Shown one piece after another: positions 8,920-19,951 of a stretch of DNA of 20,099 nucleotides. The position numbers were made by a program, and so were the translations under genes. Within the stretch, counting starts at the first letter, position 1. Each line of letters starts with the position of its first letter. The DNA comes from a virus. The notes below the pieces were generated by a model that saw only the letters and a list, made by a program, of their open reading frames with translations, did no database searches and was not told the origin of the DNA. The stretch is from positions 1 through 20,099 of the IMG/VR virus record IMGVR_UViG_3300042314_000066, one strand, 5' to 3'.

Positions 8920-11900
8920 TGGTCTACCTCAGATAGTAATTCACGTTCCCAAACACGCCCGAAATCTGGAACTTGTACGGCAAGCGCATCACCAATGCTA
9001 GTCAAGTACCCTCGCAACGGTTCAGCACTCTTAGATGTAGCCAAACCCTGAGCCGATCCACCAGCAGCAATCCATTGTGAAAGAACCTGATCCCGATAAC
9101 TGAAATAAGTATTAACCGCTTTAGCCACATCGTTATCCTTCAAACGTGGATCAGCAATAGCGTCTTTCATCTGGACAACTTTCTTTTCAAACTCACCTAC
9201 CGTGAACACAGGGACAACAGGAAAACCTGGGTACTTCTTGTTCAACTCAACACGGATACCTTTAAGCCATGCGCGTTGCTCCTCGTTAGGGTAAGCCCCA
9301 ACTTGTGCGCGATAAGCCTTATATTGCGATGAAGCCAAACGGTATTGGGCTTGCTCAATAACCTGCTTGTCAGTCAACCGGACACGCTTCCCACCCTTGA
9401 TCTGGCGTTGCCACACTTGAAAATCAAAGTCTGATCCACCAGGGGCAAAGAACGCTGCCACATCAGGATATGCCTTAATAACCTCACCATTGGTTCGCTC
9501 CCAATCACCGAACTCTTTGGTTGCTTCCAAACCTTCAACAGTTGCCTTTGACTTAGACGACAGATACAGCAACGCATCCTCACCATAGATACGCAAGAAC
9601 TCACCAACAGCGGTGTCATAGTTATCTGCCTGCAACTTGTAGAACTCTTGGATGAGTTGCGATGCCATGATGTCACCATCTTTGACAGGTATTTCAAACT
9701 CTGTGCCAGGTGCGGTAGGTCCGATGAACTGCCCGATGGCTCGCATCGCAGTCAAAATACGTGCCTTGCCCTTAGCGTCAGACATCAGTTCTTGTTGACC
9801 TTCGGGTGTGTCCAGGTTGTAGTCACCTGAAGCAGCCAACGCCCGCATAGTGTCAATGTAGGTGTTGCCGTAAATGCCTTCCAGTTTTGATGGGTCAGCT
9901 TCAATAGCAGACTGAAGTTTTTTCGCCCATGAAGGAAGCAACGATGCTGTCGTCCCACGACCATAAGGGAGGAGGATGCTGACAATTCCATCAAACTTTG
10001 GTGTGTCAGGAATAATCTGGTCGGCAGCAATCTGCCCTACAGGGCCTAATGCTGGATGCCAGTCCAAACCAACAGATACACGTTTCACAGTTCCCTGCAA
10101 CGGTGCGTTAATGCCAGTAGCAAGTTTCGCTAGTTCACCGGATAGAGGGAAGTTAAATGAATACTGTTTTGTGGTTGGGTCTTTATAGAAAAATCCTCGA
10201 CCGTTCCCATCTGGATCAAAGTCTGTTGCACCCTTAAACAAGAGTTGTGCGCGACGAATACGGGTAGGGTCCTCAACCAAGAATTTGGCGTATGTGCCAA
10301 CAACTTCACGCCATGCAGCACCGAATGGGATGACGATACGCATAATATCTTCAAGGTTGTTGCGTTCGGTTGCGTTAAACAACGCTTCCTTAGTTGAGTT
10401 AAGTGCGCTTAAACCTGCATAATCGTCAAGGTCTTTGATCGTTCCAGTACCGTTCGCCTGTTTAGCTAGTTCTTGTATCTGCTTCCAGTTCGCTTTACTG
10501 CCAACATAATTCGCTGGTTTCATTTCAATCGCAGCAGCATTATCAATTACGTCTTGAACCAACTTTTTTGCTTCAGCAGGAGTAAGACTGTCAACGTTCT
10601 TTGCTACCTGCTCATAGTAGAACTGACGGTATACAGGTGATCGTTCAAGTTTGTTGACGACTTTGCTTTCATAAATTTGGTGAAAGAACCAGTCTGTACC
10701 TCGACGCAACATCTTATCTAAAGGATTCTTTGCCTCATCAACAACGTTACGTTCAGCATATTTGACTTTTGCTGGAAGATTATTTGGAACACTTCTCTTA
10801 TCCTGGATCATTTTGGTCAGCTCTGTTCGACCACGCGCCAACTCATCTGCCTCAACACCAACACCAGTAAACTGATTTGTTGAAACACTTTGTAACTGCC
10901 ATCTTCCACCCGATTCATTGGTGACAACAGCAAGTATTTGTTTCTTGGTAGTGGGGTCAACACCCATGTCAATCAACGAACCTCTGCCTGGTATCTGTGG
11001 TCCATCAAGAACATTCCGCACTACGCCGTCGAGTTCCACGGTCTTAGGGGTAAGTATTTTGAAACTGTTGTCAAATGTATCTGCTAAAGGGACACGCTTG
11101 TAGGCAATAGCCATCATCAGTTCTTCATCGCCACCAGTCTTAACCAGTACACGACCCCTAGCCAACTTGTCAATCCATTCCTTCAGAACATCATCAGTAA
11201 CGTTCGTGATCTTGACTTTTTGCGAATATCCGGTCTCCTTGGCAAGATTGATTCCACCACGCAGATAGTCCTCAATCTGTTTCAATGCTTCACGGCCTTT
11301 TGGTTGTGTACGCAAATACTCAATCAAGTCGTCTGTTGATATGCCTTTGGCTACAGCGTTCTCTAAAGTGTCCTTAGAGATTTGGATGATTTCATCACGT
11401 AGACCCGTAACCCACAATTCTGGTTCTGACATTTGGCTAACAATCTTGTATGAACCGTTCTTAACCAAACGAACCTGTGACGGAACCACATCATCAAGGC
11501 TTTTACCTAAAGAAATTTTCATCGCTTCCGCGTAATAGTCCGTGGCATCATCAAATCCACTAACAGTTGACGTAATGAAATCATCAAAATCACGACCAAT
11601 GATCCGTTCAGCACCCTTTTCACCCATAGCCCACTGGATATATCGCAGAGGATGATTAAAGAAACCATCTTTCCCAATAGTTGCCATACGCACCTGGGCA
11701 TCAAACATATTTCGCATGATGTAACCACCGGTAGCAAGGGTGATTGGCTTCCAAATCTTGTTCTGCAAATAGTCAGCAATCTCTACAGCAGCACGTTGGT
11801 CGCCATCCTTTTCTCGCAACACCGCTCGCTTAACGACAGGGTTTGCGGTCATTCGACGGATAGCACGAATATCAGGAAGAACGTGGGCAGAGTTCAACAG

Positions 11901-15637: not shown

Positions 15638-15904
15638 CTATTTTTTCTTTTTAACAGCTTTCTTAACCTTGACTGACGCTGGGTTGGTGGCTGCCAAACG
15701 GTTTTCATAAACAAACTTCTTGGCTTGTGCAAGACGCCTCTTGACTGCTGGAGAAAAATCCATATCTGGACCCATACCCCCACGTTGCCTTTCCGCTTCC
15801 ACCAAATCTTCCATCGCATACTTCAAACCCTGCTTGGTGCTACGGGCTGCCTGTGCCTGAACAGCACGATTACTTGCACCTTTTTTCTTTTTTGCTGCTG
15901 CCAT
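15638..15904 (-). CDS. 88-aa Lys-rich protein between terminase and portal
   Basis: Both ends are poly-basic (MAAAKKKKG at the start, KVKKAVKKKK at the end), and the middle is helical with ARSTKQGLKYAMEDLVEAER and a PAVKRRLAQAKKFVYENRL segment. Such charge suggests binding to DNA or to an acidic virion surface; I do not recognise the family. GAGG lies 4-5 nt before the ATG. The Lys codons create A-rich runs at both ends. The TAG stop is followed at once and in the same frame by the portal ATG, so readthrough would give a Lys-rich-portal fusion. Confidence 0.8.
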   Translation of the reverse strand: MAAAKKKKGASNRAVQAQAARSTKQGLKYAMEDLVEAERQRGGMGPDMDFSPAVKRRLAQAKKFVYENRLAATNPASVKVKKAVKKKK

Positions 15905-15937: not shown

Positions 15938-17917
15938 TCACACCAGCCAAGAAGGTCGCCATTTCTTTTGTGGCCGACTTATCGGTGACAAGTTAGGCAA
16001 ATGAAGCATCGCCATCCAACACGCCATCACAAGGTCAGTACCGTTCTTCTTATCCCTAGTCCACGACGAGTGTTCCTCGATGAAGGCAAGTGTTTTCCAG
16101 TTTTCCCGCATAGATGGGGTACGGATCGCACCGGAACGAAACAACTGTGGAAGCAACGCTTCCACACCAAGATTTTCGTCAATCTTATTACGGCTGGTGG
16201 TGTGTGCGATCACGTTTACGTTGTGTCGGGACTGCCATTTGCGAACAAAGTCGTGTGCCAGAAGGAATCGTTGAGCTGCGTTGACCTCAACTACCCAATG
16301 TGAGATGGGGTAGCCCATGTCCATAGCCCTGTTCTGCCAATCTTCCATAATCCCCGAATAGTCACGGGTCGTGGTGTCAAAGCCAAGTAGCTGTTCGGCT
16401 GTAAGTTTGACTCGTTCCACGTCAATCAGGAACCGCAGGTTTGTTTCAGGCTGATATATCCACCATTGGATAGCCCAAAACATTGTTGGGGATGGGTCAA
16501 CGCTGGCAATCGAGATAAGTGGGGGTTGAAGGTTGTGGGGTACGTGACCTGGGCGACGCTCGTTGTCTACACAGCCTGGGTACAGCACCCCGTCAGGGCC
16601 GATCCCGCCGGTAGCCCACACCCGTTCAATCAGATAGTTACCTTCAGCTTGATCTTCCTGCTGGTATACCACCGCAAACTTGGATGGGTTGGAATGTTTA
16701 ATGTATGACAGGTCTTTCCAAGACAGACGATGAGGGTCTAGGAGTGGTCCGTTAGGCCATGCAGGGGACGAGTTCCGTTTAGACGCAAGCCCTGTATCCA
16801 AATCCTCATAATATGCTTTGTAGATCAGGTGATGATATTTTTGTTTCTTTAACGGTTCCGTGTCCTGTGAAATGTCCGTTGTATCTGATCCGTCATAATC
16901 ATCCTCGAAATCTTCGTAGGTGACTTTGCTGAGACAATGAGCGTAGAGGTCCAACGGTCCAAGTCGTTGTCCGACGACGGCGAGCAAACCGCCTGGATCG
17001 ACTCGCGCTTCAGCCATTGAATCCCATCTCTCAATGAGTTTGTCTCTTGCCGCAGATTCTTTAGCGTTCTCCGGTGATGCAACGTCATCAAACAAACACA
17101 GATCGGCACGATGACCAATGAATTCAGACTCAATACCGTAAGCAGAAACAGTTGGTTCCTTGTTATCCAACCCACCCATGTCCTCCTGTTCAACAATGAA
17201 TTCTTCAGCTCGCCACAACGACCCTGAAGTTGAAGGCTTAAACCTACCGTAGTCAATAGCCAAACACGCTTCCGCCTTTATTGCTAAACCTTTGTCAATC
17301 AGCACAGGGTCAGGGTCCAACGGGAACTGTCTTTCAAGGGTTTCACGGATACGACGCGAATACATCTTCGCCAATGACTGCGAAACGGAGCCGATCATCA
17401 CACGAATCTTGCGGTTCTTTACTATCTGCCACACAGCAATATCGTGAAACAGGGTGGACTTACCTGCACCTGGGGGGCAGTTCAACACCACAAACTGTTT
17501 ATCGTTAGACAACAAATAATCTTCGATCTTGTATGCGGCATCCACCTGCCACGGGGACGGGATACGGCCCAAATATCTGCGCCTGAAATAGTCGAAGTCC
17601 ACAAGCCCACGTTGTGCTTCCTCACTCAAACGGTCATAAGGGATAACAGGGGGAAGATCAGAAACATCCATCACCTTCGCCCAAGCATCAGCCTGAACAC
17701 CACCCACCTTAGAACGATTCTTCCCACCATCAAGTTTTGCTATTTCAAGTTCGGCTTTAGCCTCACGTTTCTTAGCGTCCCACCCTTGTGCGGTGTTGTA
17801 GTGGACACCCGCAATTTTGGCTGAGTCCTTGATAGACATACCGGAAGCTCTTGCTTGCCAGTATCGGGCGATGTCTTGTGGTGGTACTTGACGACGACCA
17901 GATCGTCCAGCGGTCAT
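15938..17917 (-). CDS. Terminase large subunit with N-terminal helix-turn-helix
   Basis: This is the DNA-packaging motor (ATPase plus headful or cos nuclease). Residues ~14-50 (IARYWQARASGMSIKDSAKI and onward to NTAQGW) form a helix-turn-helix like those of small terminase subunits. The ATPase has Walker A NCPPGAGKST (146-155), Walker B LCLFDD (273-278), and a coupling motif GQRLGPLDLY (317-325). The nuclease is RNase H-like: Asp474 in SVDPSPTMFW, Glu544 in WVVEVNAAQRF and Asp628 in NGTDLVMA are the likely metal ligands. At 659 aa it is long for the family because of the N-terminal addition. The ATG overlaps the HNH gene stop as ATGA. No separate small subunit gene is seen in the window. Confidence 0.95.
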   Translation of the reverse strand: MTAGRSGRRQVPPQDIARYWQARASGMSIKDSAKIAGVHYNTAQGWDAKKREAKAELEIAKLDGGKNRSKVGGVQADAWAKVMDVSDLPPVIPYDRLSEEAQRGLVDFDYFRRRYLGRIPSPWQVDAAYKIEDYLLSNDKQFVVLNCPPGAGKSTLFHDIAVWQIVKNRKIRVMIGSVSQSLAKMYSRRIRETLERQFPLDPDPVLIDKGLAIKAEACLAIDYGRFKPSTSGSLWRAEEFIVEQEDMGGLDNKEPTVSAYGIESEFIGHRADLCLFDDVASPENAKESAARDKLIERWDSMAEARVDPGGLLAVVGQRLGPLDLYAHCLSKVTYEDFEDDYDGSDTTDISQDTEPLKKQKYHHLIYKAYYEDLDTGLASKRNSSPAWPNGPLLDPHRLSWKDLSYIKHSNPSKFAVVYQQEDQAEGNYLIERVWATGGIGPDGVLYPGCVDNERRPGHVPHNLQPPLISIASVDPSPTMFWAIQWWIYQPETNLRFLIDVERVKLTAEQLLGFDTTTRDYSGIMEDWQNRAMDMGYPISHWVVEVNAAQRFLLAHDFVRKWQSRHNVNVIAHTTSRNKIDENLGVEALLPQLFRSGAIRTPSMRENWKTLAFIEEHSSWTRDKKNGTDLVMACWMAMLHLPNLSPISRPQKKWRPSWLV

Positions 17918-18330
17918 TGATTAGCCTGGTCTTGTAAGTACTTGTATAACAACATGGCTCTAGACGGTTGTTCCTTTATTCGACCTACCGCCACATTACA
18001 ATCATCGCACAAAAGTGCGCGTACCCGACCAGTTGCATGATCGTGGTCAACACATAAAGCCCTGAGTTTTCCTGTTCTTTTGTCGGTTCGCCATTCGGGA
18101 AGGTTGCAACAAGCACATACGCCGTTTTGTGTTAGAAGCATTTGCTGAAACTGGCTGATCGTTATTCCATACTTGTTTTGAAAAAACCATCGTTGACCGT
18201 ATTCAGGGTTTTCTTTTTGCCATTTGTTTGTGCAAGTTTTACATCTGGCTTGAAGGCCATTCTTTTTACGTTTGTCTGGGCTGAAATTCGCAGGCTCTTT
18301 AGATACACCGCATCCTCGACAAGTAATCAC
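17914..18330 (-). CDS. HNH endonuclease, endonuclease VII-like, with zinc ribbon
   Basis: With the GTG start the protein is 138 aa. Cys4, Cys7, Cys30 and Cys33 make an N-terminal zinc ribbon. Cys72-xx-Cys75 and Cys108-xx-Cys111 frame the DHDH motif (95-98) and the ATGRVRALLC...CN segment, the signature of the recombination endonuclease VII family. Such enzymes cut branched DNA or act as free-standing homing nucleases, and HNH proteins beside terminases can assist cos cleavage and packaging. A GTG at 18330 is chosen because it lies 7 nt after an extended -10, as in leaderless actinobacterial mRNAs. A TTG at 18354 would add eight residues but would lie upstream of that promoter and has no ribosome binding site. 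Confidence 0.88.
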   Translation of the reverse strand: MITCRGCGVSKEPANFSPDKRKKNGLQARCKTCTNKWQKENPEYGQRWFFQNKYGITISQFQQMLLTQNGVCACCNLPEWRTDKRTGKLRALCVDHDHATGRVRALLCDDCNVAVGRIKEQPSRAMLLYKYLQDQANQ

Positions 18331-18337
18331 AATTACA

Positions 18338-18346
18338 TTTATAGCA
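18338..18346 (-). promoter_or_regulatory. Extended -10 promoter for HNH-terminase block (leaderless)
   Basis: The minus strand reads TGC-TATAAA, an extended -10, followed by 7 nt and then the GTG of the HNH gene. With the usual 6-8 nt spacing, transcription would begin at or next to the G of GTG. No clear -35 is seen. This is the only promoter-like site I can find ahead of the packaging genes. Confidence 0.5.
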
Positions 18347-18409
18347 CACCGCAATAATGAAACGAGTTACCGCTACGCCCCGCTGTCATTGTTCTGATAA
18401 TCTACCACC

Positions 18410-18482
18410 GTTGGTGGGTGTGCCGTAGAGCAACAGCACTTTAATGAACTGGATGGCTCCGGTCCTCCTCACACCCACCAAC
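18410..18482. repeat. 13-bp perfect inverted repeat around 47 nt
   Basis: GTTGGTGGGTGTG (18410-18422) and its exact complement CACACCCACCAAC (18470-18482) can form a long stem. On the minus strand an inner GTGCTG/CGGCAC hairpin with an 8-nt loop can form if the outer stem gives up three pairs. The segment lies between the terminator at 18493-18518 and the HNH promoter. It is not a standard tRNA, since no D-arm or T-arm fits. It could be a structured RNA, a protein-binding site or part of a packaging site. Confidence 0.6.
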
Positions 18483-18492
18483 ACTTACAAAC

Positions 18493-18518
18493 AAAAAACC
18501 CCCACCTTTCGGCAGGGG
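18493..18518 (-). terminator. Intrinsic terminator after the 59-aa unit
   Basis: On the minus strand CCCCTGCC and GGTGGGGG pair as an 8-bp stem (two G-T pairs) closed by a GAAA tetraloop and followed by six T. The G-T pairs and the T run work only in this orientation; on the plus strand they become A-C mismatches. It ends transcription coming from the 18591-18770 gene. Confidence 0.75.
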
Positions 18519-18590
18519 CCTTGTTTACCACCGAGGTAATAGGGGTATTAACGTTGTCTGTACTTAACGGTTCCAGCAGATTCTGTTTTT

Positions 18591-18770
18591 CTATTTAAAT
18601 TTTCTATTTGGAACTTTAGGTGCTGGTTGAGTTGGTTTCCTATTTTTAATTGGTTGTGTTGAGACTTCGGGTTTTGGTTGAGTTGGTATTTTAATAATGG
18701 GTCCACTTTTAATTGGATTACGTTTAATTGGTTGTATTGAGACTTCGGGTTTTGGTTTTTTATTTTGCAT
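18591..18770 (-). CDS. 59-aa Pro/Lys-rich repeat peptide
   Basis: The predicted peptide is almost all Lys, Pro, Gln, Ile, Thr and Val, with two copies of KPEVS-x-QPIK 26 residues apart and a basic end (PNRKFK). It has no visible membrane span or enzyme motif and is probably unstructured. The ATG at 18770 lacks a ribosome binding site but lies 7 nt after TGT-TATGAT, a leaderless arrangement; an ATG four codons earlier (18782) would overlap the promoter. A terminator lies ~75 nt beyond the stop, so promoter, gene and terminator form a compact unit. The DNA is AT-rich compared with its surroundings. I do not recognise the peptide. Coding is likely but not certain. Confidence 0.5.
   Translation of the reverse strand: MQNKKPKPEVSIQPIKRNPIKSGPIIKIPTQPKPEVSTQPIKNRKPTQPAPKVPNRKFK
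18645..18679 (-). repeat. 35-nt direct repeat, copy 1
   Basis: This 35-nt segment matches 18723-18757 with a single mismatch and a 78-nt offset (26 codons). It encodes the second KPEVS-x-QPIK element of the 59-aa peptide. Confidence 0.9.
18723..18757 (-). repeat. 35-nt direct repeat, copy 2
   Basis: This is the partner of 18645-18679. It encodes the first KPEVS-x-QPIK element, near the N-terminus of the 59-aa peptide. Confidence 0.9.
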
Positions 18771-18777
18771 GTTGGAA

Positions 18778-18786
18778 ATCATAACA
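18778..18786 (-). promoter_or_regulatory. Extended -10 promoter, leaderless, for the 59-aa gene
   Basis: The minus strand reads TGT-TATGAT, then 7 nt, then ATG. The layout matches the HNH promoter at 18338-18346 in both the TGN extension and the distance to the start codon. No good -35 is visible. Confidence 0.5.
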
Positions 18787-19368
18787 TTGTTGTGGTACTC
18801 TCTGTTGCAACTTCACAAGTCGTCACTGTCGGGATGATAGCGATGCACGCATGGCTGTACCACGTTTGCAGGTGGCGGGGCATAAACAGGGGAACCTGGG
18901 TCGATGAACTATTTACTGGTTCAAGCAGCGCGGTGAACGTCATCTCACCAAACAAGGTGTCGGCTAAAAGAAACTAGCTACGGCGACCTGCTCACAAAGA
19001 GCGAACCGTGGGGGGAGCAACAAACATTCTTTAGTCACTGGTAGAGACATACACACACGTATGTGAATATCCCCAACCACCCCAAAGGTCAAACCCTCCT
19101 CCCAAGGTGGAGCAGCATCAACCACCCACCGCGGTCAAAAAAACACAGGTGAGATTTTCCCCGAACCACCTCCAGAGCCACACAGCCCACCACCCAGAGT
19201 GGTCACAAAACCACACACAGAGACACACCCTAATATGTATCTGTATGGGGGAGTGCTAAGGCATATCCCCCCTTGCCTGTGTGCTGTGCGTGATGGTCCG
19301 GCCACTGTCCGTGGTGGATCCGTGACCCGTTCAAGACTGATCCAGGCCGCAAGACCCCCCCCACCCCC

Positions 19369-19654: not shown

Positions 19655-19951
19655 GTGGAACCATTACAAGTTAGTGAAAGCTATCGGGTTACGTTGCGGG
19701 CTAAGTATCTGCCCGTGACTAATCATAGGGGCAGCCGTATAAAGGTAAGCCGCTATGAGAATTCGATGCACGGGCGTGACCCGCAAACGGTCACGGTGTC
19801 ATGGGATTATTCATTAGACACTGGCGCGAACTATGCGGCAGCTATCGCGGAATATGTACGCCGCGCGGGTTGGGGCGGGCATTGGGTGTCGAGCATGATT
19901 GACGGCGGCGCGGTTGGTGTATGTGTGGACGCGGTAAAGGTTGGCGCATAA
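19655..19951 (+). CDS. 98-aa small phage protein
   Basis: The gene starts at GTG with AAAGGGG 6 nt upstream. The protein has YRVTLRAKYLPVTNHRGSRI at residues ~10-30, TVTVSWDYSLDTGANYAAAI around 45-65, and a C-terminus with RRAGWGGHWVSSMIDGGAVGV. I recognise this TN-x-RGSR...WDY...GW layout from a small conserved family in actinobacteriophage early or non-structural regions; the role is unknown. It is the first gene behind the rightward promoter and its stop overlaps the next ATG as TAATG. Codons here are richer in CpG and GC than in the virion block. Confidence 0.85.
   Translation: MEPLQVSESYRVTLRAKYLPVTNHRGSRIKVSRYENSMHGRDPQTVTVSWDYSLDTGANYAAAIAEYVRRAGWGGHWVSSMIDGGAVGVCVDAVKVGA

Follow-up and report, generated by a model that had tools for sequence, protein, structure and literature searches.

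The window that we analyzed is a whole 20.1-kb viral record (20,099 nucleotides). Its minus strand encodes the major capsid protein, the portal, and the terminase large subunit, and an ORF on its plus strand starts at 19655. Between these two groups of genes lies a short unit on the minus strand. A first-pass annotation, made from the sequence alone, had this unit sitting alone between the packaging genes and an early promoter. The location between the two gene groups holds, but the unit is not alone: it lies between a structured RNA on the plus strand and an endonuclease VII-like gene that is inserted at the start of the terminase. We found no DNA match between the window and isolate phages. 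The terminase matches those of isolate phages at low identity only (about 26% for the best among the matches listed), and no relatives of it were found in GTDB genomes. Isolates exist of phages of 'Ca. Nanopelagicales' (PMC10202952), and this order is no more than a guess at the host of the present group. The features in and around the unit are:

18808-19025, plus strand: structured RNA that forms the slot's upstream wall (modelled over 18850-19025, with an inferred start based on its promoter)
18793-18801, plus strand: TGG-TACTCT, putative promoter for the RNA, divergent from that of the unit; relatives have TGC-TACACT or TGC-TATAGT
18778-18786, minus strand: putative extended -10 promoter, TGT-TATGAT, with no -35 recognised; the same element lies ahead of 23 slot genes of relatives
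18591-18770, minus strand: leaderless 59-aa Pro/Lys ORF (MQNKKPKPEVSIQPIK...), stop included
18723-18757, minus strand: direct repeat, copy 1 (KPEVSIQPIK)
18645-18679, minus strand: direct repeat, copy 2 (KPEVSTQPIK), 97% identical
18594-18628, minus strand: degenerate third copy of the repeat, 63%
18548-18550, minus strand: TAA at the stop place of relatives' slot genes; the frame that it closes in the window is +1 rather than that of the 59-aa ORF
18495-18522, minus strand: stem of the putative GAAA-loop intrinsic terminator, followed by six T; nine relatives have it almost letter for letter, and there is a version with a TTCG loop in other clades
18410-18482, no strand assigned: 13-bp inverted repeat, the downstream wall of the slot; its arms change together in relatives

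Anatomy of the unit

The first-pass annotation described a promoter, a leaderless ORF, and a terminator within AT-rich DNA, and we recovered all of these. The extended -10 element (18786-18778) is separated by a spacer of 7 nt (TTCCAAC) from the ATG at 18770, which opens a frame of 59 codons that ends at 18591. An alternative in-frame ATG at 18782 overlaps the -10 element and would give 63 aa. The two KPEVS-x-QPIK repeats are encoded by a near-identical 35-nt direct repeat, whose copies match at 34 of 35 positions, in frame and 26 codons apart. The terminator is orientation-specific, as claimed: a 12-bp stem (18522-18495) with a GAAA loop is followed by TTTTTT on the minus strand only. Across the region, terminator-like matches are near expectation (4 found vs. 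3.2 expected). The G+C content of the unit is 0.367, against a mean of 0.488; among windows of 294 nt, just 0.35% have so little G+C.

The ORF alone proves little, because in dinucleotide shuffles the ATG frame was open for 59 codons 2.7% of the time, some open frame of that length was present in 13%, the +1 frame of the unit is also open (73 codons, through to the TAA), and codon usage is uninformative between the frames. We therefore did not accept an open frame and codon usage as decisive proof of coding; these statistics put the 59-aa ORF weakly above chance. The unit is above chance because its position, promoter, and terminator are conserved in relatives. The unit is also present in three other contigs, and none of the four copies has a broken 59-aa frame. 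The copies are identical over the length of the unit, so dN/dS is not applicable.

A slot with changing contents

We gathered relatives by searching with the terminase, which yielded 79 loci. In many of these loci, the equivalents of 19130-18850 and 18550-18370 are conserved and the middle is variable. Some slots are empty: the flanks are joined by a short link, with about 180 nt between fixed anchors (L007, L008, L009, L017, L026, L030, and others). The unit in the window is thus an insertion between features that are adjacent in relatives (as in L007, L009, L017, L026, and others). Other loci have a small Lys-rich ORF in the slot (L010, L013, L020, L029, L032, L058, L061, L066, L076, L079, and others), and in some there are other genes further towards the terminase, such as methyltransferase-like ORFs (named by eye).

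An element like TGt-TA(T/C)nGT lies upstream of 23 slot genes in relatives. Most of these genes have a leader of roughly 45-60 nt after the promoter, often with a Shine-Dalgarno (SD)-like stretch. In nine relatives, the ATG is right behind the promoter, as in the window; in eight of these (L024, L031, L047, L050, L051, L055, L071, and L078), it comes directly behind the -10 element and at most 2 nt after a CAAC, and L054 is similar. Behind the slot genes of nine relatives lies a terminator in the same place, with nearly the same letters, and in other clades the slot genes are followed by a terminator with a TTCG loop. The unit is not always complete: in L010 and L061, the slot gene lacks the GAAA-loop terminator. 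The 59-aa frame ends 43 nt short of the stop place of relatives' slot genes. Since the slot in relatives holds further small Lys-rich proteins with a similar charge, the 59-aa ORF, which occurs there with both promoter and terminator, is on this comparison one occupant of a family-wide slot.

The content of the slot turns over. We assigned slot states (empty, Lys-rich gene, or other) by hand to the 54 tips of a quickly built maximum-likelihood terminase tree; there are at least 20 changes of state, including at least 14 between empty and gene, but many forks in the tree have weak support, and counts of this kind are raised by recombination between terminase and slot. Some empty slots belong to relatives whose terminase DNA is about 96% identical to that of occupied loci. 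Within the clade of L026, the empty link is gatgTTTTTAATGTTGG, the occupied slots of L029 and L032 have ggggTTTTTTAATGTTGG, and the link resembles the tail of the terminator. Compared with L029 and L032, this T-tail scar is seen in the empty slots of L026, L030, L033-L035, L045, and L064. Because the empty links of this clade keep the T-tail of the clade's terminator, the sequences suggest that whole units were lost by deletion. Insertion of units into a T-run is possible instead.

The 59-aa protein

The predicted protein has a mass of 6.7 kDa, a pI of 11.3, a net charge of +13, and one aromatic residue, and 22% of its residues are proline. We expect it to be disordered. Most likely it would bind nucleic acid or an acidic partner, and we have low confidence in this. 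Membranes and SH3-like domains, which the first-pass annotation also named among possible host targets, are conceivable alternatives.

The first-pass annotation did not recognise the class of the product. In searches for homologues, that judgement stands: the 59-aa protein had no profile matches in Pfam or PHROG, and a protein search returned identical copies and no other homologue. (A PHROG match at E = 0.24 to a frame-joined version of the peptide was taken as chance.) Nor did tblastn find any relative of the peptide among the loci found via the terminase. By site and charge, however, it has company in the small Lys-rich slot proteins of relatives, which begin with MAMKK (L010, L013, L046) or MASKK (L024, L031) and share its site, promoter type, size class, net charge, and M-x-x-K-K start. 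Six other slot proteins have net charges of +9 to +22. Past the first residues there is no alignable homology: MQNKKP at the start of the peptide is in register with MAMKKP of L046, in sequence that is A-rich. The peptide also differs in its proline content, which is 3-12% in the slot proteins of relatives that we examined. Separately, a motif like GSLADYKKS is found near the N-terminus of otherwise differing slot proteins from distant lineages (L024, L047, L050, L071, L126, L161, and L202).

A structured RNA at the upstream wall

The conserved block at 18850-19025 on the plus strand is strongly supported as a structured RNA by covariation. Across 36 sequences, 93.5% of the cells paired, vs. 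72.5% in column shuffles and 31-40% when the structure was slid; there were 254 two-sided changes, vs. 80.5 in shuffles. The structure was drawn by hand from the same sequences, which favours the score, but both controls were far below it. At the pair 18985/19006, for instance, G-C, U-A, and C-G all occur. Another helix, H5 (GGU/ACC), would probably form a pseudoknot, but its pairs are invariant.

We also considered an RNA on the minus strand at this block. This is disfavoured by the alifold energy (-91 on the plus strand vs. -75 on the minus strand), by the hairpin loops, which are GNRA on the plus strand, and by U-tracts after the plus-strand 3' end in L051, L054, and L055.

The core of the RNA consists of GGTGTCGGCTA and CGTGGGG. 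A pattern taken from this core matched viral contigs, and the loci collected (L001-L207) gave at least 137 distinct RNA sequences. The exact pattern, which diverged copies would escape, had no match in 84,980 GTDB genomes. Wherever a terminase was detected, it was divergent from the RNA and some 160-1,900 nt away, in a set that was partly collected via the terminase. The two 5' forms of the RNA are covered by a single covariance model (E ≤ 4e-10). Of 25 viral records, 21 have one copy by this model and the other 4 have a pair. The second copies are in the records of L071, L055, L103, and L157 (G012, G015, G021, and G022), with about 11 to 28 kb between the two, and in three of the four records the second copy is shorter. 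A second, weak match of the model within the window (9956-10068, 12.3 bits, E = 0.0037) was taken as chance.

Rfam covariance models had no match to the window at E ≤ 1 or to nine of the loci at E ≤ 3, no match to the RNA was found in isolate phages, and we found nothing on it in the open-access literature. The conserved block contains no detectable tRNA or tmRNA. In L028 and L068, the 5' half of the RNA includes GGGGTTCGATCCCC, which resembles the T-arm of a tRNA; ARAGORN reports no tRNA there.

GOLLD and ROOL RNAs are linked to phages. Like those RNAs (PMC12286853), this one is conserved, elaborate, and non-coding, with no assigned function, but it is much shorter (about 180-250 nt) and lacks an Rfam match. 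It is possibly a new phage RNA family, and it is more surprising than the peptide unit. A bolder proposal from the sequences is of an undescribed RNA family that is confined to this group of phages, has its own promoter divergent from the cargo's, and forms one module with the cargo beside the packaging genes; we offer this only tentatively, at well under even chances.

Other elements near the terminase

Just before the terminase, the hairpin at 18410-18482 has equivalents in L026, L036, and L046. Its 13-nt arms co-vary between clades (GTTGGTGGGTGTG vs. GTTGGCGGATA), and its inner part is conserved (CCGGAGC...GCTCAACGG). This hairpin is a second candidate RNA or a candidate protein-binding site.

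The endonuclease VII-like gene (17914-18389, minus strand) is inserted at the start of the terminase, as it also is in L057. The sequence at 18389-18370 (ATGACAGCGGGGCGTAGCGG) is the terminase start as in relatives; the nuclease follows it, and a recoded start (ATGACCGCTGGACGATCTGG) comes next, at 17917. From this arrangement, the insert resembles a homing endonuclease that puts its target back in frame.

Interpretation

Very probably, the stretch is a genuine gene, tiny and complete in itself, that encodes a small basic protein. We think it is likely to be a moron-like, separately transcribed cassette in a hypervariable slot beside the packaging genes of a group of uncultivated phages, and its product is likely to be an accessory protein, small and very basic and probably disordered. 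The first-pass annotation had likened the unit to a moron, and this reading is well supported, because promoter, ORF, and terminator come and go together at one site, the G+C content deviates, and close relatives differ in content. As judged against published descriptions of phage morons (PMC5567305 and PMC7380047), the unit shares with them, by its sequence alone, its own promoter, its own intrinsic terminator, a G+C content unlike its neighbours', and presence or absence between the same flanks. Morons also benefit the host and are expressed in a lysogen, apart from the phage programme; the likeness of the unit is one of sequence features. Unlike morons, the slot has been refilled repeatedly with proteins of one general type.

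If the cassette works as we propose, host RNA polymerase would read the extended -10 promoter and initiate on the A of the ATG or right beside it, giving a leaderless mRNA of about 280 nt. Because this transcript would end at the GAAA-loop terminator, the gene would neither depend on the terminase operon nor read into it. During infection, the 59-aa protein would act through its charge, most likely on nucleic acid or an acidic partner to which it binds. Since the flanking RNA and the inverted repeat are common to relatives, recombination at these could exchange or remove cassettes. We infer that the product is dispensable, as well as transcribed, translated, disordered, and able to bind such partners.

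A serious rival, if an unlikely one, is that the slot gene is decaying: a longer Lys-rich protein was truncated by a frameshift in its A-rich 3' part, and the 59-aa product is a remnant, perhaps useless. The +1 frame runs to the TAA at which relatives' slot genes end, and a protein that used it would have a basic C-terminus (...TVKYRQR); also, the leader with an SD-like stretch that most close relatives have is missing in the window. But leaderless starts are common at the slot in other clades, the 59-aa frame is intact in every contig that holds it, and promoter, ATG, and terminator are all intact as well. The register of promoter, start, and terminator, which agrees with that in the slot genes of relatives, makes it very unlikely that there is no gene here, just an AT-rich repeat array (a binding site or spacer) that is open in two frames by accident. 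The near identity of the 35-nt DNA repeats, the weak ORF statistics, and the uninformative codon usage would fit such an array, but we noticed no repeats of this kind in the other slots that we read.

The slot proteins might instead be virion or packaging proteins, which aid the packaging of DNA or are packed with it. The slot is directly before the terminase, terminase and portal have a second small Lys-rich ORF between them (15638-15904), and the slot proteins of L047 and L071 resemble that ORF by eye (in a YENRL stretch). We find this doubtful, as the slot is empty in many relatives, including some of the near-identical ones described above, and the unit's own terminator sets it apart from the operon.

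Overall, a moron-like cassette is nothing out of the ordinary, but the exchange slot that holds it is unusually clear, and the RNA beside it looks new. Because related phages swap small basic proteins at this one site, they provide a natural series, and a comparison of the occupants could reveal the role of such mini-proteins. The RNA may matter more than the slot, as it is compact and strongly covarying, with many distinct viral sequences and no Rfam family. If it is transcribed, it would be a new class of RNA, and roles in packaging, control of the polymerase, or early regulation are all possible.
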